A program made the translations under genes and the position numbers. Shown here piece by piece: positions 5,691 to 54,155 of a stretch of 56,626 bases of DNA. Position 1 is the stretch's first letter. Every line of letters begins with the position of its first letter. The notes beneath the pieces were generated by a model. The model searched no databases, was not told the origin of the DNA, and saw only the letters and a list, made by a program, of their open reading frames with translations. The stretch comes from Candidatus Brocadiaceae bacterium (GTDB lineage: Bacteria > Planctomycetota > Brocadiia > Brocadiales > Brocadiaceae), in contig JACVXV010000008.1 in assembly GCA_015661205.1 (NCBI GenBank), positions 1 to 56,626 of the forward strand, written 5' to 3'.

Positions 5691-6028
5691 GCGAAAGTTG
5701 GAGGAGGCGTGGCTGGCCACTATCATCCCCCGCCGGCGGGGGATTAAGGGCGTACGTAAATTAGGCCTTCGGCGACATTCAACAGCGTAGTGGCAAGGCG
5801 CGCCTTGCCACTACAAAGTCGGTTTGAATTTCCTGTACATTAAATTAGGTCATTGGCGGCTTTTTTGTGTTCACACGTGGGGACACGGGCACCGTGTCCC
5901 TACGACGGCATTGAAATTCCTATACATCAAGCTGGAGCTTGGGAACGAGAGAAAGCATCCAGCCGTCAACTTAACACCTATGCCTGCGCCCCCGCCGTTT
6001 GAACTATCTCATGATCAGTTCACCGTAA
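5691..6028. repeat. intergenic cluster of GTAG...CTAC palindromes and spacer modules
   Basis: The stretch holds no gene. It contains a perfect 28-bp palindrome at 5787-5814 (arms GTAGTGGCAAGGCG / CGCCTTGCCACTAC). A second hairpin lies at 5877-5903 (GTGGGGACACGGG / ACCGTGTCCCTAC). It also has two copies of the spacer with TTAAATTAGG next to a GCCTTCGGCGAC-type box, and a GCTGGAGCTTGGGAACGAG hairpin half near 5932-5950. Confidence 0.7.
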
Positions 6029-8699: not shown

Positions 8700-8842
8700 C
8701 GGCGAAACGGTTCACCTTGTTCCCAAGCTCCATATCGGGAACGGGGTTGCAATAAATTTTCTGCTTTGAGTCATATCTGAAAAAAAGAAGCAGGAGCTTC
8801 CGGTACCGGCACATTCCCAAGCTGGAGCTTGGGAACGAGAAA
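8700..8842. repeat. two GTTCCCAAGC-type hairpins
   Basis: Gene-free. The hairpin CCCAAGCTGGAGCTTGGGAA (about 8815-8834) and a degenerate relative (about 8717-8742) belong to an interspersed family also seen near 5940, 15820, 24730, 27525, 41570 and 44630-44757. Confidence 0.6.
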
Positions 8843-8859
8843 ATGCATACGAAACGGCA

Positions 8860-9438: not shown

Positions 9439-9502
9439 AGCAATCGACCTCCCCCTTCAAATGTTTGTTAATAATGGTTAAATTATGCCTACGGCGACTT
9501 TT

Positions 9503-9609
9503 TTTAATGAATAACATATAACAAAAAATGAAAAATGTTAATGTGTTGTAAGATGGTTTCTTCTTTTAGTTATTAATTATTCGTTTCTTGTTATATGTTA
9601 TTCATTAAA
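9503..9609. mobile_element. MITE-like palindromic element with 22-bp perfect terminal inverted repeats
   Basis: Arms TTTAATGAATAACATATAAC(AA) at 9503-9524 and their exact reverse complement at 9588-9609 enclose 63 bp of AT-rich sequence with no coding frame. The right arm abuts a GGTGGGCAATGCCCACCCTAC palindrome (9610-9630). It lies in the 188-bp gap between the vWA and TPR genes of the Bat operon and could fold into a long hairpin in the message. Confidence 0.6.
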
Positions 9610-10646: not shown

Positions 10647-11036
10647 TTTTTTAAAATTGTTTCTAGTTTCGTGTTTCAGGTTTCGGGTTTCGAGTGGCAG
10701 ACTTAGCCCGCTGGTTGTTGTTGCGGGACGCGGAGCGTCTTAATATAACATTCCCACTGTAGCGCGGGGGTTCATCCCCCGATTGGTGTGTATTCCCGGA
10801 CATTGCCGGCTATGAAGGCCGGCGCTACAAGAAATGGCGTTGCCATAGGTGACCTAATTTAACGTATAGGGAATCCAAACGCACGTGTAGTGGCAAGGCG
10901 CGCCTTGCCACTACGCTGTTAAAAACCGCCGAAGGCCTAATTAAAGGTGTAGGAATTTCAAAGCTATCGTAGGGTTACCCTTTAGGGTTGCAACCCTTGG
11001 TGTGCATTCAGGCAGTTGCAAGGCTAAAGCCTTGCC
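10647..11036. repeat. GTAG...CTAC repeat cluster inside the Bat operon
   Basis: Gene-free spacer between the vWA and BatD-like genes. It contains a two-hairpin unit at 10759-10828 (head GTAGCGCGGGGGTT, tail AAGGCCGGCGCTAC). A perfect 28-bp palindrome at 10887-10914 is identical to 5787-5814. A third unit lies at 10968-11040 (GTAGGGTTACCC ... GGCTAAAGCCTTGCCCTAC). Spacer modules TTTAACGTATAGG and CCGAAGGCCTAATT lie between them. Confidence 0.75.
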
Positions 11037-12497
11037 CTACGGGGGCGAACCGGTCAGCCTGATGATTTCTTGGATTTCTTGCATTGCTTTGTCAGCCGAC
11101 TCCTTCTCGATACGTGTCCCAAAGACAAGTCTGTCGAGGCTCTTTAGTGCCGTTTGGATTACGGGCAATGCGTCGCCCTGCAGGCGCGATTGGGTGTCAT
11201 GGATCAGGAAATTGGCCGTAGCGGCTGACTGCGCCGTTTCATTTGAAATCCCCATGATTATGCCGAGATACGACCTCAATGCTTTGCTCACCTCTTGCAG
11301 GTGTTTTGCATCCGCCGTAGCGTCTTCACTGGCGGACGGAAATGATGCAAGGGTGTTTTTCAACCTTGCCAGGGAGGTTTGCGGTGTTTCCTGCGCCTGG
11401 TTTTGCGAGGGTGAAAACCGCCTTGAGGTAGCCCTGAGGGTCATTACGCACAAGAATATGAACAACATTACCCCCGCGCCCATAGGCAAGTATCCGTGCA
11501 GGAAGAGTGACCTCTCTGAATAACACACCGGACCTTTCATTCCCTCCAGGGGGACATCGACTGCCTTAAGAAGGCTGTTTATAATGATGGGTATGGGGCT
11601 TGTCTTTATTTCCTTCGTGTCAAAGGTTTCCATTGACGAGTGCTTGCGGACATTCTGGGCAGGGGTGTCCTGGTAATACAAAACCGTTAAAGCCGGTATC
11701 TCTGGTGTCTTTTTCTTGCCGCCCAGTTCGTATATTGAAAGGGCGTAACTTATCGTTACCCTTTCAATATTTCCCTCCGTTCGCTTCTCAGTGTGTTTTT
11801 TTAAGACTTCAAAAGGGGAAAAATTCTGCTTTTCCAAATTTTCCCATAACAGGTTTACGCCCTTTTCGTGGCGTATGGTAAGGGCGTAGTTGATCCGATC
11901 CCCTATGTTAACAACGTCCCTGTCCACCTTTCCTTCAACGATTATGGGGGTTTTTTTGATGGTAATAGGAGAAGAAGAGGTCTTGCCTTCGGTCTTATCG
12001 ACCTCATTCCGGTAGGTAAGGGCGAAGGAAGGCAGGGTATAAATCCCATCTTTCACCTCTGAAGGCATGGAAAGGGTATAGGTGATTACCTGGTAGTCGT
12101 GCTCGTTGTCAAATATCTGGCGTTCGCCGATAACTATGCCTTCTATCCGGCAGGGGGGGAGGTTGATTTTGTTTATTTCTTCCAGGTTGATCGTTATGCC
12201 CAATTTCCAAATAAGTTGTACCGTAAGGTGCAACGTCTTGCCGGTGATTATCCGGTAGTTGTCAATAAACGTCCAGATTTCAAGCGGCCTGTCCATCAAC
12301 AACGGATTACTGCCGCCGCCCTCGTCCTGTTTCAATTCCGCGGGTTCCGCGAGTGTTGTCCATGGCGACGTACCTTGCGGTTGGTTTGCCTGCGCAGGTT
12401 CCAGGCTTGTTTTTGCCGGTTCCTGGGCATTTGCCGAAACAATGCCTGTGCCTAAAAAAGCTGCAAAAACAATTGTCGTGAAGAACGTGTTTTTCAT
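11037..12497 (-). CDS. BatD-like oxygen-tolerance family membrane protein
   Basis: A 486-residue protein. It has an N-terminal signal (FFTTIVFAAFLGTGIVSANA), then a long beta-rich periplasmic region (about 75-330) with the repeated pattern of BatD (VNIGDRINYALTIRH, PSFALTYRN, EIPALTVLYY). One transmembrane helix follows (GAGVMLFIFLCVMTL, about 343-358), then a cytoplasmic helical tail (about 370-486). Order and neighbours fit: it follows the DUF58 gene with a 4-nt overlap (12494-12497) and precedes the vWA gene. The family is linked to envelope stress or oxygen tolerance in Bacteroidetes and Leptospira, but its biochemical role is unproven. The final codons overlap a GCCTTGCCCTAC repeat end (to 11040), so the native 3' end may have been altered. 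Confidence 0.78.
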   Translation of the reverse strand: MKNTFFTTIVFAAFLGTGIVSANAQEPAKTSLEPAQANQPQGTSPWTTLAEPAELKQDEGGGSNPLLMDRPLEIWTFIDNYRIITGKTLHLTVQLIWKLGITINLEEINKINLPPCRIEGIVIGERQIFDNEHDYQVITYTLSMPSEVKDGIYTLPSFALTYRNEVDKTEGKTSSSPITIKKTPIIVEGKVDRDVVNIGDRINYALTIRHEKGVNLLWENLEKQNFSPFEVLKKHTEKRTEGNIERVTISYALSIYELGGKKKTPEIPALTVLYYQDTPAQNVRKHSSMETFDTKEIKTSPIPIIINSLLKAVDVPLEGMKGPVCYSERSLFLHGYLPMGAGVMLFIFLCVMTLRATSRRFSPSQNQAQETPQTSLARLKNTLASFPSASEDATADAKHLQEVSKALRSYLGIIMGISNETAQSAATANFLIHDTQSRLQGDALPVIQTALKSLDRLVFGTRIEKESADKAMQEIQEIIRLTGSPP

Positions 12498-15219: not shown

Positions 15220-15460
15220 TGCACACTTCTCCTGGATTTATTAACAGTACTTATGGGTACATACTACGTCGGAACAACCCGGCCTGGAGGGGCCATAAAG
15301 GAAGATTGGGGATTCTCAAAATTAAGTACGACATCTATAGAATTAACCCAAACCCGTGTCATAGTAAGCGAATCACTATCTTATGTCAAGCCGGAGAAAT
15401 CAATAAAAAATATCTTGAAAATCAGGCATAACGATGATAGCATTCAAAAAAGGATGCCGA

Positions 15461-21187: not shown

Positions 21188-21320
21188 AGAACGATGTCCT
21201 TGTGGTTGACACAGCAAGCAAGTAACGATGCACACTATTGGCCGTGTAATTAGTAATTCAATGTATAGGAAATTCGGTGTCAGGCCTGAAAGGCTGGCAG
21301 GATATAGGGAGGGGAAGCCC

Positions 21321-21567
21321 ATAGGTGTTAAGTTAAGAAACCTATAATTACCAGCAAACCCTTGTTTTTGTTAGCCCTGAAGGGGCGAAATAACTCAGCC
21401 CAGGGCAACGCCCCTGGGGACACGGAAAAACCAACAAGCCCTGAAAGGGCGCAATACGGAACGAATCGTTGTTTTGCACCCAATGTCGCCCCTTCAGGGC
21501 TTGTTGTGCTAATAATGCTAAACCCAGAGCGCTGCCCTGGGCTGAGTTATTGCGCCCCTTTGGGGCT
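21321..21567. repeat. long interspersed repeat A, copy 1
   Basis: About 247 bp beginning ATAGGTGTTAAGTTAAG and ending TTTGGGGCT. Inverted copy 2 is at 41866-42110, mostly identical over the full length. Internal palindromes include AGCCCTGAAGGGGCG, CAGCCCAGGGCAACGCCCC and CAACAAGCCCTGAAAGGGCG with its later reverse GTCGCCCCTTCAGGGCTTGT. No conserved frame was seen between the copies. Confidence 0.8.
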
Positions 21568-21628
21568 ATATTACAAATGTGGTTAGGTTAAGTTTGTCCG
21601 CCTTTTCATTTCTTAACTTAACACGTAT

Positions 21629-21852
21629 GGGGTGAAGCCCCCTGAAAAGATAATAAAATAATACAAGCCCCGAAGGGGCGGCAGAACGTTTTTTTTCATG
21701 ATCAACACAGAAATAAATTTTAGAAGTAATAGGTGCCTTAGCCATGCTGTACGCCCTTTTCTGTCGCCCCTTCGGGGCTTATTATATCGTTGCATTTACC
21801 AGGTGCTTCACCCCTGGCTATATACTTTCAGCCCTTCGGGCCTGTTGTAGAG
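21629..21852. repeat. long interspersed repeat B, copy 1
   Basis: About 224 bp from GGGGTGAAGCCCCC to CTGTTGTAGAGC. A direct copy 2 is at 53734-53959. It contains the hairpins CAAGCCCCGAAGGGGCG and CGCCCCTTCGGGGCTTAT and the shared core ATCAACACAGAAATAAATTT. It sits next to repeat A. A further hairpin (GGGGCGAAGCATTTGC / GCAAATGCTTCGCCTCC) follows at 21858-21925. Confidence 0.8.
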
Positions 21853-22059
21853 CCGTTGGAGGGGCGAAGCATTTGCAAAATGAGGTGTGCATATATCACC
21901 GTGTAAGCAAGCAAATGCTTCGCCTCCACATACGTCCGCAATACAAAAATCGCCGAAGGTCTAATTTATTGGTAGCGTAGAAAAAGAGAGACCTGGCGTA
22001 ATGGCACCCTTTGATTACGTGGAGTTATAAGGGCAATTTGGCTAAAGGTCTCCATAATT

Positions 22060-27406: not shown

Positions 27407-27560
27407 GTAGGGTGGATTAAGCGAAGCGTATCCACCAGATTATGATTTTTCCTTATTCCCCTTAATTGGTCTTCGGCAACTTTTTTATGCTCACACGTGG
27501 GGACACGGGCACCGTGTCCCTACATAAACTCGTTCCCAAGCCGGAGCTTGGGAACGAGAT
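27407..27560. repeat. GTAG-headed and GTTCCCAAGC-type hairpins between cbiB and dnaK
   Basis: GTAGGGTGGATTAAGCGAAG (from 27407) is followed by the GTGGGGACACGGG / ACCGTGTCCCTAC hairpin (27497-27523, same as 5877-5903). Then comes CTCGTTCCCAAGCCGGAGCT (27529 onward). The block probably holds the 3' end of the dnaK transcript. Confidence 0.65.
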
Positions 27561-27574
27561 GAACTGCTTCTACC

Positions 27575-30126: not shown

Positions 30127-30375
30127 GTATGAAAAAAGGCAAGGTTTCAATTAAAAAGTGCGAAAGGGGGGGGCATTTCCAATGCCATTGCCGACCATGA
30201 AGATCGGCGCTACAAATGCCGTCGCCGTAGGCGACATGAATTCTTCAACGATCGGTCTGCATTCAACACACAGGCAGATGATTGGCCTGGTTATGATGAA
30301 TCCTGTAATGCCTACTTTTTTATCTTTTTACCCATAGATTCCCCCGAAGAGCCGAAAATTTGATATTTGGCAAAC
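30127..30375. repeat. spacer with a partial GTAG/CTAC repeat
   Basis: No gene. The segment AATGCCATTGCCGACCATGA to GATCGGCGCTAC (30181-30213) is the right half of the two-hairpin unit seen complete at 10759-10828 and 52993-53064. It is followed by the GTCGCCGTAGGCGAC hairpin. Confidence 0.5.
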
Positions 30376-31822: not shown

Positions 31823-32055
31823 GCAGGGTTCCGTTTCAAGCCGTTCTTACCGGGACGAATAATTTACTGAAATTTAATTGTATAGAAATTTTAGAGTCGA
31901 GGCACGGCACCCGCGTCCCCGTGGGGAAAAATAGTGACCGTGCACTTCATTTAACGTATAGGAATTTCAAAGTTGTAGAACGAAGCGATTGCTTCGTTAT
32001 GGGCGAAGTGGCACTTCGCCCTACTATAGAAAAAGTCGCCGAAGGCATAATGTTG
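31823..32055. repeat. GTAG...CTAC unit with spacer modules
   Basis: A GTAG-headed unit at 31974-32024 (GAACGAAGCGATTGCTTCGT, then GGCGAAGTGGCACTTCGCCC) is preceded by ATTTAACGTATAGGAATTTC (31950-31969). It is followed by GTCGCCGAAGGC (32035-32046). It is the cleanest single example of the modular arrangement in this window. Confidence 0.7.
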
Positions 32056-33243
32056 TTAGCTTATACATTCCATCTCAGTATTATAACTATCGGCGCTTAA
32101 ATCTATCTCAAAGGGCATAATTTTTTTCTTGTTATTATCGTAAAGAAGCCTTACCTTGGGTTTGGATATTTCAAATCTGTTCAAAGAGGCCACAATTCCC
32201 GAAAAATCCCGGTACCTGCCATTTATTATCATTACCTCACAACCGATCGGATACTTAGGCACAATCTGCAAGAAGCAATCTACTAACTCCTTGTTAAATT
32301 GAGACACGGCGCCTACCCTAACCAATTCGTGCGCCAGGTCGGGACGCAGGGCTGCGCGAAATGGCCTGTCAGATATGCAGGCGTCATAGTAATCCGCTAT
32401 GGCGGCAATTTCCGCAATGGTAATCATTTTTTCCTCATCCATGTAAATGAGGTCACCTTTATCAATTTTATTGGTGCCTCTCAATCCCCTGGGATAGCCG
32501 TTGCCGTCCTGCCGTTCGTGGTGTTGGTAAGCGATATGTGCGGAAGCTGCGCCTATGGTCTCTATGTCCTTAAGCAACTCATATCCATAGTTAGTGTGAA
32601 GTTTTATTTGCTCAAATTCTAATTGTGTTAATTTGTCTGATTTATTGATAAGGTTTTCATCGATAAAGATATATCCAATGTCGTGAAGAAACACACCGAT
32701 GGCGATTTGTTTCAATTTTTCAACGCTCAGATTCAACCTTTTGCCCATAAGTAACGCCATAATGGCTGCATCAATGGAATGTTCAAAAAGGTAGTTATCA
32801 AAACTCTTAATCGAATGCAAACCGGACAAGACCTCCTGATTTAAAAGTTCGTCAACAAAGGGACCTATATTCTCACACAATTTTCTAAAATAAGGATTGT
32901 CGTGAAATGATCTTTTAAACTTAGAGGTGTTAATGTTCCTCATAACGGCGTCGGTCGCATCCGCCTCTATTTCTTCTAAGATGGACTTGGTCATAGAATA
33001 GGTGTTGAATATGTTCTTTGTGGCCATAATTCGAATCTTATCGGATATGGGGTCATTAATAACGATATTTTCCGATTCTTTGTCCTCAATGTAAATCTTC
33101 AAGAAACCCCTGCCTTTTAACTGGGTTATATATCGATGCTCAAGGATTACCCCTTTGTTTAACAATACCTCGAAATTACTGCCGTATATTGTTTTTGCGA
33201 GTTCCATACCCGGCAAAGCGTTGTTTATATTAATTCTGCGCAT
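32056..33243 (-). CDS. HD-GYP domain protein, tandem copy 1 of 3 (most divergent)
   Basis: A 395-residue predicted c-di-GMP phosphodiesterase. An N-terminal DUF3391-like domain (about 1-60, NNALPGMELAKTIYGSNFEV) and a helical linker precede an HD-GYP domain (about 150-335). The motif HHERQDGNGYPRGLRG is intact, but HDIGK reads HDIGY and the next helix has HTNYGYELL. A beta-rich C-terminal domain (YPIGCEVMIINGRYRDFSG) resembles those of its neighbours. HD-GYP enzymes hydrolyse c-di-GMP to pGpG or GMP. Loss of the Lys after HDIG could lower activity. It is the last of three tandem copies, 24 nt after copy 2, and is probably co-transcribed. Confidence 0.85.
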   Translation of the reverse strand: MRRININNALPGMELAKTIYGSNFEVLLNKGVILEHRYITQLKGRGFLKIYIEDKESENIVINDPISDKIRIMATKNIFNTYSMTKSILEEIEADATDAVMRNINTSKFKRSFHDNPYFRKLCENIGPFVDELLNQEVLSGLHSIKSFDNYLFEHSIDAAIMALLMGKRLNLSVEKLKQIAIGVFLHDIGYIFIDENLINKSDKLTQLEFEQIKLHTNYGYELLKDIETIGAASAHIAYQHHERQDGNGYPRGLRGTNKIDKGDLIYMDEEKMITIAEIAAIADYYDACISDRPFRAALRPDLAHELVRVGAVSQFNKELVDCFLQIVPKYPIGCEVMIINGRYRDFSGIVASLNRFEISKPKVRLLYDNNKKKIMPFEIDLSADSYNTEMECIS

Positions 33244-33267
33244 AAATGCATTATCGTTGCTTCGACC

Positions 33268-34455
33268 CTAACTAAAACACTCTATTTCAAGAACCCTTGC
33301 GTAGGAACCTAAATCTACCTCAATCGGTTTAATCTTTTTTTTCTGGTCATCATTTAACAGTAAGATTTTTGGGACAGACAACCGCTGAGGATTCACCGAA
33401 GCCACTATGCCGGTATAATCTTTATATTCACCACTCTTAACCCTCATCTCATACCCCACAGGATATTTAGGCACCACACTAAGAAAACAATCCACTAATT
33501 CTTTGTTAAATTGCACTCCGCTGCCGGTCTTAATAAGCTCATAGACCAAATCAGGGGACAACCCTTTACGGTACGGTCTATCGGAAATACAAGCGTCATA
33601 GAAATCCGCTATTGCCGCAATTTCTGCAAGCATAATTAACCGGTCACCTTCTCGAAATTTTAATAAACCCATATCGAGCTTATTGGTTCCCGTCAGGCCG
33701 CGTGGATAGCCTCTGCCGTCTTGCCTTTCATGATGTTGGTAGGGGATATGTGCGGCAACGCTTCCTATTTGCTCAACGTCTTTTAGCAGTTCATAGCCAT
33801 AGACAGGGTGCAACTTAACCGTTTCAAACTCTTCCGGTGTCAACTTACCCGGTTTGTTAATGATTTTTTCGTCTATGAATATTTTTCCAATATCGTGGAG
33901 AAATTCTCCAACCGCAACCTGTTTCAATTTATCCTGACTAAGCATCAGTCTTTTTGCAATTATAGTCGAGATCACTGCAGTGTCAACGGAATGTTCATAG
34001 GTGTAATTATCAAAACTTTTAATTGAATTTAATCCCGATAGCACGTCCTGGCTCATAATGCCTTCAAGAAAATGGTTAAGATTATTACAAAGGTGGATAA
34101 AAATGGGATTGTGTTGAAATGCGTTTTTAAATTTTGGCGTATTAATGCTTTTTATAACAGCATCTGTAGTATCCGCTTCTATCTTTACCAGGGATGCTTG
34201 AGTAATCTTATATACCTTGTGAATATCTTTTGTCGCCATGGTGCGGATTTTGTCTGATATGGGGTCTTTAATAACAACGTCCGCCGTTTCCACATCGTCA
34301 ACGTAAATCGTTGTATATCCCCTGGCTTTTAGTCGGATAATATAGTCCTTTGTAAGGACTACCCCTTTATGTAACAGGACATCAAAGCTATCCGTGTAAA
34401 TCGTCTTGCCCAGCACGACACCGGGCTCAGTCTTATCTATTGATATTCTTCGCAT
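33268..34455 (-). CDS. HD-GYP domain protein, tandem copy 2 of 3 (canonical HDIGK)
   Basis: A 395-residue paralogue of its neighbours with the same architecture. Its catalytic motifs are the most canonical of the three: EFLHDIGKIFIDEKI, KLHPVYGYELL, HHERQDGRGYPRGL and EIAAIADFYDACISDRPYRK. It is thus the best candidate for an active c-di-GMP phosphodiesterase. N-terminal RRISIDKTEPGVVLGKTIYT matches copy 3. The C-terminal domain is YPVGYEMRVKSGEYKDYTGI. It starts 95 nt after copy 3 and precedes copy 1 by 24 nt. Confidence 0.88.
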   Translation of the reverse strand: MRRISIDKTEPGVVLGKTIYTDSFDVLLHKGVVLTKDYIIRLKARGYTTIYVDDVETADVVIKDPISDKIRTMATKDIHKVYKITQASLVKIEADTTDAVIKSINTPKFKNAFQHNPIFIHLCNNLNHFLEGIMSQDVLSGLNSIKSFDNYTYEHSVDTAVISTIIAKRLMLSQDKLKQVAVGEFLHDIGKIFIDEKIINKPGKLTPEEFETVKLHPVYGYELLKDVEQIGSVAAHIPYQHHERQDGRGYPRGLTGTNKLDMGLLKFREGDRLIMLAEIAAIADFYDACISDRPYRKGLSPDLVYELIKTGSGVQFNKELVDCFLSVVPKYPVGYEMRVKSGEYKDYTGIVASVNPQRLSVPKILLLNDDQKKKIKPIEVDLGSYARVLEIECFS

Positions 34456-34550
34456 AAAAGCCGTTCAAATAACGTAATTGAATAAAGATGTATTTCCCTA
34501 TAATTAAAATAGTTTAAAACAGTATGGATATGGCTTAATTCTCATGCATG

Positions 34551-35750
34551 CTAATTAATACACTCTATATCGATAAGCCCGCGATAAGAGTATAAATCTA
34601 CTTCAATCGGTTTAATCTTGTTTTTCTGATTATCGTTTAACAGGAGAATTTTTGGGGCGGACAACTTAGATGTATTCAATGTTGCAACTACCCCGATAAA
34701 ATCTTTATACTCACCGCATTTAACCTTTATTCCGTATCCGACAGGATATTTAGGCACCACACTCAGAAAGCAATCTACCAATTCGTTGTTAAATTGCCAA
34801 CCGCCGCCTGTTTTAACAAGCTCATATACCAAATCCGGGGACAATCCCGTGCGGTACGGTCTATCAGAAATACAAGCGTCGTAAAAATCAGCAATAGCCG
34901 CAATCTCGGCAAGGATAACCAGCTTATCACTGGTAGTAAATCTTAACTCGCCTGTTAACGATCCCATATCTATCTTGTTGCTTCCCCTCAAACCGCGTGG
35001 ATAACCCATGCCGTCTTGTCTTTCATGATGTTGAAAGGAAATGTGCGCGGCAACACCTTCTATTTTGTCTACGTCTTTTAGTATTTCATAGCCATAGACA
35101 GTATGCAACTTTATCTTTTCATACTCTTCCGGTGCTAACTTGCCGGGTTTGTTAGCGATCTTTTCATCTATGCATAGCTGCCCAATATCATGGAGGAATT
35201 CGCCGGTCACAAGCTGTTTCAATTTGTCCTGGCCAAAAGAGAGCCTTTTTGCAATAAGCACCGATATCACCGTAGCATCAACGGAGTGTTCGTAGGTGTA
35301 GTTATCAAAACTCTTGGTTGCGTTTAACCCCGATAGCACGTTTTGGTTCATTATGTCTTCCAGAAAACGGTTAGCATTTTCACAAAGGTGAGTTAGAACA
35401 GGATTTTGTTGAAAAGATTTTTTGAATTTTGGCGAATTAATGCTTTTGATAAGGGCACTTGAAGTATCATTTTCTGCCTTAGCAAGATTCAATTGAGTAG
35501 TCCTGTACATCTTCTGAATGTCTTTTGTTGTCATGGCGCGAATTTTGTCTGATAAGGGATTTGTAATAATAATGTCGGCCGTTTCTGCATCGGTCACGTA
35601 AACGGTTGTATGTCCTCTGGCTTTCAATCGAGTAATATAGTCGATTGTAAGGGGGGTACCTCTATTCATCAGTATATCATAATTATCTGTGTAGATCGAC
35701 TTACCAAGCACCATACCTGGTTCGACCTTGTCTACCGTTAATCTTCTCAT
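34551..35750 (-). CDS. HD-GYP domain protein, tandem copy 3 of 3
   Basis: A 399-residue paralogue, first in transcription order. N-terminus RRLTVDKVEPGMVLGKSIYT. HD-GYP domain with EFLHDIGQLCIDEKI (Gln in place of the Lys), KLHTVYGYEIL, HHERQDGMGYPRGLRG, and a 4-5 residue insertion (LTGELRF) before the final helix. It is closer to copy 2 than to copy 1. AGAGG lies 4 nt before ATG. It begins 28 nt after the MBL-fold gene's stop, so the MBL gene and three HD-GYP genes could be one transcript. Confidence 0.86.
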   Translation of the reverse strand: MRRLTVDKVEPGMVLGKSIYTDNYDILMNRGTPLTIDYITRLKARGHTTVYVTDAETADIIITNPLSDKIRAMTTKDIQKMYRTTQLNLAKAENDTSSALIKSINSPKFKKSFQQNPVLTHLCENANRFLEDIMNQNVLSGLNATKSFDNYTYEHSVDATVISVLIAKRLSFGQDKLKQLVTGEFLHDIGQLCIDEKIANKPGKLAPEEYEKIKLHTVYGYEILKDVDKIEGVAAHISFQHHERQDGMGYPRGLRGSNKIDMGSLTGELRFTTSDKLVILAEIAAIADFYDACISDRPYRTGLSPDLVYELVKTGGGWQFNNELVDCFLSVVPKYPVGYGIKVKCGEYKDFIGVVATLNTSKLSAPKILLLNDNQKNKIKPIEVDLYSYRGLIDIECIN

Positions 35751-36681: not shown

Positions 36682-36735
36682 CGGTTTAAACCGTTTAAAC
36701 GGCTTAAGCGGATTAAACCGTTTAATCCGCCTAAA
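36682..36735. repeat. nested short palindromes built on TTTAAACCG
   Basis: Successive palindromes CGGTTTAAACCG, CGTTTAAACG and GCTTAAGC are followed by the stem pair CGGATTAAA/TTTAATCCG. They fill 54 bp between the DUF255 gene and the MBL-fold gene. They could fold in more than one way in the message. Confidence 0.6.
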
Positions 36736-41514: not shown

Positions 41515-42183
41515 GAGTTTTGTAACAGGCCGGTTGTTGTAACGGGACGCAGGGTCTCCTGATGTTGTATTCCCACGCCGGAGCGTGGGAACGAGTTGAT
41601 GTAGGGACACGGAGCCCGTGACCCCTCGTGTGAATACAAAAGCCGCCGAAGGCCTAATTTAACGTATAGGAATTTCAATGCCGTTGTAGGGACACGGAGC
41701 CCGTGTCCCTGTGTGCAAAAAAAGTCGCCGTAAGGCCTAATTTAACGTATAGGAAATTCAAAGTTAGGCCTGAAAGGCCGCTAGGTCATGACGGGGGGGA
41801 GCCCATAGGTGTTAAGTTAAGCAATAAAAAGTCGGGCAAAATCAGCCTCGCCGTATTAGCAATACAGCCCCAAAGGGGCGCAATACAACAGCCCAGGGCA
41901 ACGCCCTGGGTTTAGCATTATTAGCACAACAAGCCCTGAAGGGACGATATTGGGCTCAAAATAACGGTTCATTCCTTATTACGCCCTTTCAGGGCTTGTT
42001 GGTTTTTCCAAGTCCCCAAGGCGTTGCCCTGGGCTAAGTTATTTCGCCCCTTCAGGGCTAACAAAAACAAGGGTTTAGTGGTAATTATTGGTTTCTTAAC
42101 TTAACACCTATGGGGTGCCCCCCCCTGAAAGATAGGAAAATAATACAAGCTCCGAAGGGGAGAAAGAAAAGGAGAAATGTGTA
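41515..42183. repeat. dense repeat block before the FadL-like gene
   Basis: No gene. In order: GTAACGGG hairpin debris, a GTTCCCAC-type hairpin (TTCCCACGCCGGAGCGTGGG, from 41570), a GTAGGGACACGGAGCCCGTG unit (41601 onward), CCGCCGAAGGCCTAATTTAA with the ACGTATAGGAATTTC box, and a second GTAGGGACACGGAG unit (41686-41710). A second copy of the same box (to 41761), AGGCCTGAAAGGCC, then the long repeat A copy at 41866-42110 complete the block. Confidence 0.75.
41866..42110. repeat. long interspersed repeat A, copy 2 (inverted)
   Basis: Reverse complement of 21321-21567 with scattered substitutions. It starts AGCCCCAAAGGGGCGCAATA and ends CTTAACTTAACACCTA. The two copies are 20.3 kb apart in opposite orientation, so recombination between them would invert the intervening DNA. 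Confidence 0.8.
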
Positions 42184-44609: not shown

Positions 44610-44760
44610 CCTCGTTCCCAAGTCACACCTTTTTCTCCTCGTTCCCAAGCTCCAGCTTGGGAGCGGGATTGCACTAAAAGCTCTGCTTTTAGTCAGAAAA
44701 CGAAGCGGGAGCTTCTGGCACAAACACGTTCCCAAGCTGGAGCTTGGGAACGAGAGAAGT
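44610..44760. repeat. tandem GTTCCCAAGC hairpins
   Basis: Three related segments in 150 bp: CTCGTTCCCAAGTCACACC, CTCGTTCCCAAGCTCCAGCT (with arm CTTGGGAGCGGG), and CGTTCCCAAGCTGGAGCTTG ending GGGAACGAGAG. A shared intervening motif AAAGCTCTGCTTTTAGTC separates two of them. Confidence 0.7.
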
Positions 44761-44791
44761 GAGAGAATATCAGCGATAGGGGGCTTAATAC

Positions 44792-52891: not shown

Positions 52892-53158
52892 GCCGATAAG
52901 TTTGTGTAGGGACACGGAGCCCCGTGTCCCTACGTGTGCGTAAAAAAGTCCCGAATGCCTAATTAAAAGTATCGGAAATTCAAAGCAATCTTGTAGCGCG
53001 GGGGTTCATCCCCCGCTGGGCGTGCATTCCCAATGCCATTGCCGGCCATGAAGGCCGGCGCTACAAACGTCGTCGCCGTAGGCGACCTAATTTAAAATCT
53101 GCATAATCTGTGGTTTCAAATGTTTTTTATTGGTCTAAGGCTTTGCATCGCAGGGTAT
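52892..53158. repeat. GTAG...CTAC cluster downstream of the giant kinase
   Basis: No gene. GTAGGGACACGGAGCCCCGT (52906-52933) is followed by TAATTAAAAGTATCGG and a two-hairpin unit 52993-53064 (GTAGCGCGGGGGTTCATCCC ... GGCCGGCGCTAC). Then come GTCGCCGTAGGCGAC with CTAATTTA, and a weak AATCTGTGGTTT motif. Confidence 0.7.
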
Positions 53159-53584: not shown

Positions 53585-54155
53585 AGGTTCTCCTTTCTTT
53601 TAAATGTATAGGAGTTTCAAAGTAGGGACACGGTTCCCGTGTCCTTACGTGTGAACACAAATAAGTCATTGAAGACCTAATTTGTGTATAGGAAATTCGA
53701 AGTCAGGCCTGAAAGGCCGACAGGATATAGCGGGGGGTGAAGCCCCCTGTAAAGATAATAAAATAGTACAAGCCCCGAAGGGGAGGCAGAACGGTTTGTT
53801 TTCGTGATCAACACAGAAATAAATTTTAGAAGAAATCGGTGCATTAGCCATGTTGTGCATCCTTTTCTGTCACCCCTTCGGGGCTTATTATGTTATTCCA
53901 TTTACCAGGGGCTTCACCCCTGGCTATATACTTTCAGCCCTTCGGGCCTGCTGTAGAGCGAAGAGGCTCTTCGCTCTACATGAAAAAACCGCTGTAGCTA
54001 GCATTGTGCGTTGCGCCAAACCACCACACAATGCCTGACAATGCATATATCTGTGGCGAGCACAACATCCATCAAACCTGAAGGTTTGAGCTACAAAAGG
54101 CGGTCGCCGTAGGCGACCTAATTTATCCCAGGCAGGTTTTGAAAATGATTTGAAA
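53585..54155. repeat. repeat block: GTAG unit, spacer modules and long repeat B
   Basis: No gene. The GTAG...TTAC unit lies at 53622-53648 (GTAGGGACACGGTTCCCGTG). Then ATGTATAGGAGTTTCAA- and TGTATAGGAAATTCGAAG-type boxes and AGGCCTGAAAGGCCGAC occur. Repeat B copy 2 (53734-53959) is overlapped at its end by the palindrome 53953-53979 (GTAGAGCGAAGAG / CTCTTCGCTCTAC). GGTCGCCGTAGGCGACC with CTAATTTA (54101-54124) closes the block. Confidence 0.75.
53734..53959. repeat. long interspersed repeat B, copy 2 (direct)
   Basis: Direct copy of 21629-21852, 32 kb away. Both share the core ATCAACACAGAAATAAATTT, CACCCCTGGCTATATACTTT and CAGCCCTTCGGGCCTG. No open frame is conserved between copies. Confidence 0.8.

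Follow-up and report, generated by a model that had tools for sequence, protein, structure and literature searches.

Non-autonomous Helitrons of eukaryotes are gene-less, rolling-circle elements that share only their ends, with a hairpin near a CTRR-like terminus, and carry captured interiors. Among bacterial intergenic repeats, the BOX elements of Streptococcus pneumoniae have a modular structure. The IS91 model holds that the transposase nicks at ori, that the strand so displaced is cleaved at ter, and that a single-stranded circle is inserted without direct repeats; when termination fails, neighbouring DNA can be taken along (PMC5714925; PMC9330008). IS801, a member of the IS91 family, targets GAAC/CAAG, which reads GTTC/CTTG on the other strand, and its miniature fragments, associated with one-ended transposition, are 229–679 nt pieces of IS801 with one true end (PMC3189936). 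PATEs, the IS200/IS605-related elements of Haloquadratum, are short and palindrome-bearing and have a short oligonucleotide target without duplication (PMC3119063), and the GTAG-tagged palindromes of REP/REPIN–RAYT systems are documented in Planctomycetes (PMC3733652). We found no account of the intergenic repeats of anammox bacteria in the open-licence literature.

The window, that is, the whole 56,626-nt stretch analysed (contig C284 of the 3.9-Mb genome of a Candidatus Brocadiaceae bacterium, an anammox planctomycete), contained two unlike sequences, box A (close to AYGTATAGGAAWTTCAAAG) and box B (close to GTCGCCGWAGGCCTAATTTA), neither of which is an inverted copy of the other and between which many classes of hairpin payload lie at a near-rigid, class-specific spacing. 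Box A in the form TTTAACGTATAGGAATTTCA had eight matches in the window at up to three mismatches, compared with none in 100 dinucleotide shuffles, and GTCGCCGAAGGCC had 11 matches at up to two mismatches, compared with 0.9 expected. Over the whole genome, box A (up to three mismatches) had 98 + 120 matches, approximately 218, and the reversed-pattern control had 1 + 2. PWM matches in 623 kb of own sequence numbered 119 for A and 114 for B (1 and 15, respectively, in the reversed sequence), and the own-genome statistics given here and below were drawn from approximately 640 kb of own sequence, partly selected for matches. An earlier note on this DNA had listed seven places at which a box, a hairpin payload and a second box follow one another. 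The boxes were present as described in all seven, although 5757–5850 belongs to a minus-strand array of two units and the unit at 21257 has its box B only at 21944–21969. The features of the window are as follows.

31950–31953, plus strand: target tetranucleotide TTTA on the host side of the left end, by comparison with Jettenia empty sites and isolated left ends
31954–31972, plus strand: box A, putative initiating (ori-like) end, ACGTATAGGAATTTCAAAG (PWM 38.9)
31973–32029, plus strand: payload P1, GTAGAACGAAGCG...CGCCCTAC palindromes (REP/REPIN type)
32030–32054, plus strand: box B, putative terminating end, stem GCC-GAA-GGC with a degraded CTAATTTA tail (PWM 29.1)
31874–31896, plus strand: second box A, decayed, just upstream of the 31954 unit (PWM 18.0)
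5756–5931, minus strand: two-unit head-to-tail array, in the order A (5909–5931, CTTG-flanked), P2, B (5840–5865), A (5822–5844), P3, B (5756–5781)
Approximately 10835–10861: decayed B variant ahead of the following array
10858–11041, plus strand: array of A, P3, B (10920–10945), A (10941–10963) and P6, a GTAG..CTAC palindrome
21257–21969, plus strand: long P8-class unit, A at 21257 and B at 21944–21969, with two Acido-Lenti-1 matches in its interior
41637–41763, plus strand: array of B (41637–41662), A (41658–41680), P2, B (41719–41744) and A (41741–41763), with P2 ahead of it (approximately 41600–41635) and a P8 payload after it
52942–53094, plus strand: B (52942–52967), A (52963–52985), P5 payload, and the B variant GTCGCCGTAGGCGACCTAATTTA (53072–53094)
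53600–54125, plus strand: two units, namely A (53600–53622), P2 and a decayed B (53660–53685), then A (53680–53702), P8 and a B variant (54103–54125)
9478–9503, minus strand: isolated box B without A (PWM 37.0)
27460–27523, minus strand: P2 palindrome followed by a decayed B, without A
30167–30243, plus strand: fragment of a P5 unit with the B variant GTCGCCGTAGGCGAC, without A

Another repeat family, CGTTCCCAAGCTGGAGCTTGGGAACGAG, was widespread in the window (also at 8782–8843, 27501–27567 and 44697–44763), and units stood after CTTG inside such repeats at 5909–5931 of the window (minus strand) and at 15379 on the minus strand of L096. The window also carried three successive minus-strand ORFs of 395–399 aa (32056–35750), which appear to be tandem paralogues (67–79% DNA identity over 300-nt stretches), and, at 36682–36734, a short run of four overlapping 9-nt repeats resembling CGGTTTAAA.

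The modular layout claimed in the earlier note, in which the boxes are constant and the hairpin payloads exchangeable, was borne out by 66 A–B pairs of less than 220 nt, which fell into several payload classes, mainly GTAG-initial palindromes (P1–P7); a further class, P8, is long (approximately 305 nt and more). Box B has the form GTCGCCGWAGGC..CTAATTTA or that of longer stem-loop variants with CTAATTTA at the end. Spacing between box and payload was non-random and nearly fixed within each class, the distance from A being 2 nt to the P1 palindrome in 23/23 copies of the own sample, 0–2 nt to P8 in 18/18, 6–7 nt to P3 in 14/15, and 2 or 8 nt to P2 in 23/24. At tandem junctions, A started 21–22 nt past the start of B in 47 of 49 cases. 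The succession noted earlier, in which a box beginning GTCGCC is followed by CTAATTTAACG as the start of the next unit, is a real arrangement, but its meaning is that of a junction between two units inserted head to tail. Payload classes were found with and without each box: P1 had both boxes in 22 of 30 copies, P2 had both in 21 copies, B only in 16, A only in 3 and neither in 18, and 17 of the 22 P6 copies were without boxes. A payload-free box–box site was essentially absent, and the one A–B pair that came close, its boxes 7 nt apart, is apparently what a deletion has left of a P3 unit. Whole-unit copies like the 31954 unit numbered approximately 30 in the genome, with 84–96% identity. The repeat was present in all 23 same-family relatives searched, among which the best-conserved stretch was the B–A junction and not A–payload–B; named records with exact matches to this junction were those of Candidatus Brocadiaceae, Planctomycetes bins and Candidatus Jettenia ecosi. 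In Jettenia, other interiors lay within the same boxes, again mainly hairpins, approximately three quarters of them with GTAG.

Several payloads are REP-type palindromes, and the interiors as a whole are chiefly such GTAG..CTAC sequences or inverted repeats of another kind. GTAG-GCGAAG palindromes resembling P1 flanked the resident Y1_Tnp gene of contig C168, and both C168 and contig C4 carried resident RAYT-like genes with payload-like palindromes at their flanks. These similarities, the GTAG..CTAC form of several payloads and the documented presence of GTAG palindromes in Planctomycetes are what would be expected if the units were REPIN composites, in which RAYTs move the palindromes and A and B are carried along as conserved flanks. 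However, the same boxes bounded non-GTAG payloads (P8 and some Jettenia classes), the insertion junctions described below were at A and B and not at the GTAG-tagged REP, and the boxes were present on IS91-family elements, making such composites quite improbable. A REP-like palindrome, TGTAGAGCGAAGTGCCACTTCGCTCTACA, was also seen inside a Y1_Tnp (RAYT-like) reading frame (L103:7115–7141, own contig C168), the flanks of which carry similar palindromes.

Insertion was examined in two Jettenia species that are approximately 96% identical (G012 and G004) and a third of the same genus (G017). Alignment of G012 with G004 (460 kb vs. 420 kb) revealed six presence/absence differences containing boxes. 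At all three sites checked in G017, the insert was present in G012 and absent from G004 and G017, a polarity of two against one among three species, and consisted of whole A–payload–B units or arrays inserted 3' of TTTA. At the cleanest site, the empty sequence, CATTCGTTAATTTA joined to TAATTTTAA, corresponded to the occupied sequence ..TTAATTTA joined to ATGTATAGGGATTTCAA..GAAGGTCTAATTTA joined to TAATTTTAA, in which a 119-bp unit directly after TAATTTA started with ATGTATAGGG and ended with CTAATTTA; the inserts at the other two, of 409 and 485 bp, each comprised at least two units. The fourth difference was a deletion that left box A behind; at this orthologous intergenic place, the units of G012 and G017 differed in payload, which looks like a swap, although differential loss from an array explains it as well as exchange. 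A further site that distinguished G012 from G017 was consistent with insertion after TTTA. The boxes had previously been taken for a fixed platform receiving different hairpins. The empty sites of the relatives held TTTA alone, with neither box, and no box–box empty site was seen among them, indicating that the boxes move together with the payload and form its ends. A and B thus delimit a small mobile unit, with the payload travelling between them.

AYGTATAGG at the 139 isolated left ends was preceded by TTTA in 37, TTAA in 19, CTTG in 18, TGTA in 7 and GTTC in 3, compared with 0.4–0.8 expected from genome 4-mers and, in a local control using tetramers 5' of any AYGTA, at most 4.8 (TTTA), 1.4 (TTAA), 1.2 (CTTG) and 0.9 (GTTC). 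Left and right tetramers of 53 isolated units or arrays showed no correlation (134 letters matched, compared with an expectation of 132.7; p = 0.40), demonstrating that the target is not duplicated, and the right end was TTTA in 34 of the 53 regardless of the left side. A 7-bp target-site duplication, which the cleanest empty site had brought to mind, was ruled out on this basis, and a MITE of a DDE transposon was ruled out by the lack of both terminal inverted repeats and target duplication. Because B ends in TTTA, the right end of a unit restores the target and the next unit can insert, which accounts for the head-to-tail arrays. The array layout and the TAATTTA common to both junctions of the cleanest site would also suit site-specific recombination of integron- or tyrosine-recombinase-like cassettes, with TAATTTA as a 7-bp crossover and arrays formed by integration at junctions, but many isolated units followed CTTG, GTTC or other tetramers with unmatched left and right sides, and we regard this mode of movement as very improbable.

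The presence or absence of units between close species also argues against BOX-like structured RNA or regulatory modules that are kept for function while their payloads diverge in place. Such modules should be mainly intergenic, and only 15 of 116 A boxes lay within ORFs at a crude ORF cover of 77.5%, but purifying selection also predicts this bias. A stem was visible in the B, B2 and B' variants, but 129 copies showed no covariation, the paired positions of the short B stem had no compensatory change (observed pairing equalled that under independence), and no Rfam family matched A or B at the gathering threshold. Functional maintenance in place thus seems hardly credible; compared by description only, BOX elements differ from the present repeats, the modules of which are probably transposon ends around exchangeable interiors.

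Of the long repeats headed by box A that a search of the sampled sequence returned, none clearly exceeded the approximately 310-nt P8 class, orthologous and overlapping stretches aside, and the full-length element was therefore located only through a family search for Y2_Tnp. This search detected IS91-type genes in 11 of 24 genomes, the own genome included. The ends of the elements were read from few loci. In G004, two copies (L272 and L279), 99.3% identical over 1616 bp, contained a Y2_Tnp gene with its 3' end facing box A and extended from box A to AAAAAGTCGTTGGGTTTTGTCTTTTAAAACCCAACCTA(A)TTTA. Their ter end, AAAAAGTCGTTGGGTTTTGTCTTTTAAAACCCAACC followed by CTATTTA or CTAATTTA (shared C counted once), also closes gene-less Jettenia units. 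A third copy lacked its middle and abutted this ter end without a gap, and shows an intermediate stage between the full-length and miniature forms. In G014 (L271), a gene of 406 aa encoding both a Zn_Tnp_IS91 and a Y2_Tnp domain had box A on its 3' side, and the contig stopped within the ter stem. On the own contig C111 (L273), box A lay just 3' of a Y2_Tnp gene that shared 66% identity with the protein of G004; this locus has the ori end only, and its gene is partial, matching residues 159–405 up to the end of the contig. The proteins carried HIHL and Y-x-x-x-Y (YPGKY, YLGKY), as expected of the IS91 family. Furthermore, P8 units matched the own IS91 DNA beyond box A, with interior scores of 52–70 compared with 34–46 for the best of 40 shuffles. 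No intact transposase with A/B ends was found in the own genome, G012 and G017 had no such gene at all, and the frame of both full-length G004 copies (L272/L279, 1266–2500) was interrupted near the zinc-binding region; the source of trans activity for the recent insertions is thus not visible in these genomes.

A second IS91 clade was also observed (L276 in G008; L274 and L281 in G010), with ends CTTG/GTTC-A-TYGTATAGGAATTTTCATT related to yet distinct from box A, and the own contig C34 (L282) carried a different IS91-type gene fragment of 259 aa at the contig end, with no box A found. The Rfam family Acido-Lenti-1 (RF01687) had four matches in the window, at 21373–21418 (minus), 21523–21567 (plus), 41866–41910 (minus) and 42015–42059 (plus). 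The matches were paired in inverted orientation, each pair downstream of a P8-class left end and the one near 21 kb within the A-to-B interval, and this RNA family may partly represent a transposon-interior palindrome in these genomes.

An IS200/IS605 origin, favoured at first from the TTTA target, was dropped. The units would then be PATEs of the Y1 HUH type, with single-strand insertion 3' of a tetranucleotide and subterminal hairpins at both ends. They do insert 3' of TTTA without target duplication, lack inverted repeats and have hairpins near their ends, in keeping with the PATE definition (PMC3119063), and Y1_Tnp genes were present in 22 of the 24 genomes searched. However, A and B enclosed no Y1_Tnp gene at the 30 loci scanned, other repeats flanked the four Y1 genes read in the own genome, TnpB was not detected in four genomes, and the CTTG/GTTC targets together with the direct match of A and B to IS91-family elements point away from this origin, which we consider unlikely. 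Words near the hairpins, compared by eye under the IS608 guide rule, gave no convincing match.

We propose, with a probability of roughly 0.8, that the units are non-autonomous (gene-less) IS91-family rolling-circle elements, with A as the initiating end and B as the terminating stem-loop. Box A would be the ori-equivalent end, lying 3' of the transposase gene, its outer side abutting TTTA, CTTG, GTTC and relatives. A Y2-HUH transposase acting in trans may introduce a nick at A, with strand displacement proceeding across the interior as far as B. The single-stranded copy would then be inserted 3' of a tetranucleotide of the TTTA/CTTG type, leaving the target unduplicated, and the terminal TTTA of B would serve as the target for the next unit, giving head-to-tail arrays. 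Interiors could be gained by REPIN insertion between A and B or by read-through past ter, from one A to a later B. It is possible, though we hold this only tentatively, that the units form a self-assembling cassette system run by an IS91-type enzyme: units would insert at one another's ter ends and rolling-circle read-through past a failed ter would recombine interiors, so that hairpins, among them the REP palindromes that belong to resident RAYTs, might be captured and mobilised again and again, as host DNA is by Helitrons.

The repeats share with the IS91 family (IS91, IS801, IS1294, ISCR) a Y2-HUH transposase (PF04986, PF14319) with a zinc domain on elements bearing the same ends, the lack of terminal inverted repeats and of target duplication, an ori end 3' of the gene adjoining CTTG/GTTC-type tetramers, and a ter terminus resembling the target; the GC-rich ter-end stem-loop of the family has a putative counterpart in the B stem, which showed no covariation. 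They differ in that the main target and ter terminus are TTTA, which to our knowledge is not a described IS91 target, and in that the units are gene-less, present in hundreds of copies and arranged in arrays. In layout the units resemble non-autonomous Helitrons, with a bacterial IS91-type enzyme as the probable mover and a tetranucleotide as the target. Miniature IS801 fragments are likewise gene-less rolling-circle derivatives moved in trans (PMC3189936), as the present units would be, but the latter keep both ends and their interiors are mostly unrelated palindromes. PATEs are similar in size, palindromes and insertion without duplication at a short target, whereas the ends described here match Y2 (IS91) elements and not Y1 transposons. 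REP/REPIN–RAYT systems have in common with the units the GTAG-tagged palindromes that form interiors here, but A and B are separate from and outside the REP.

IS91-family elements are known gene movers, and the miniature forms that we found described are single-ended fragments. What appears to be new here is a large non-autonomous IS91-type swarm across anammox bacteria, with both ends kept and with foreign hairpin interiors, in which two HUH systems (RAYT/REP and IS91) are layered in one repeat. The many units with different interiors, together with the presence/absence sites, provide natural substrates for studying the ori and ter requirements of IS91. The proposed origin accounts for many intergenic repeats of anammox bacteria and suggests an enzyme that moves them, and a swarm of this kind throughout the family would be a bacterial analogue of the non-autonomous Helitrons known from plants and animals.
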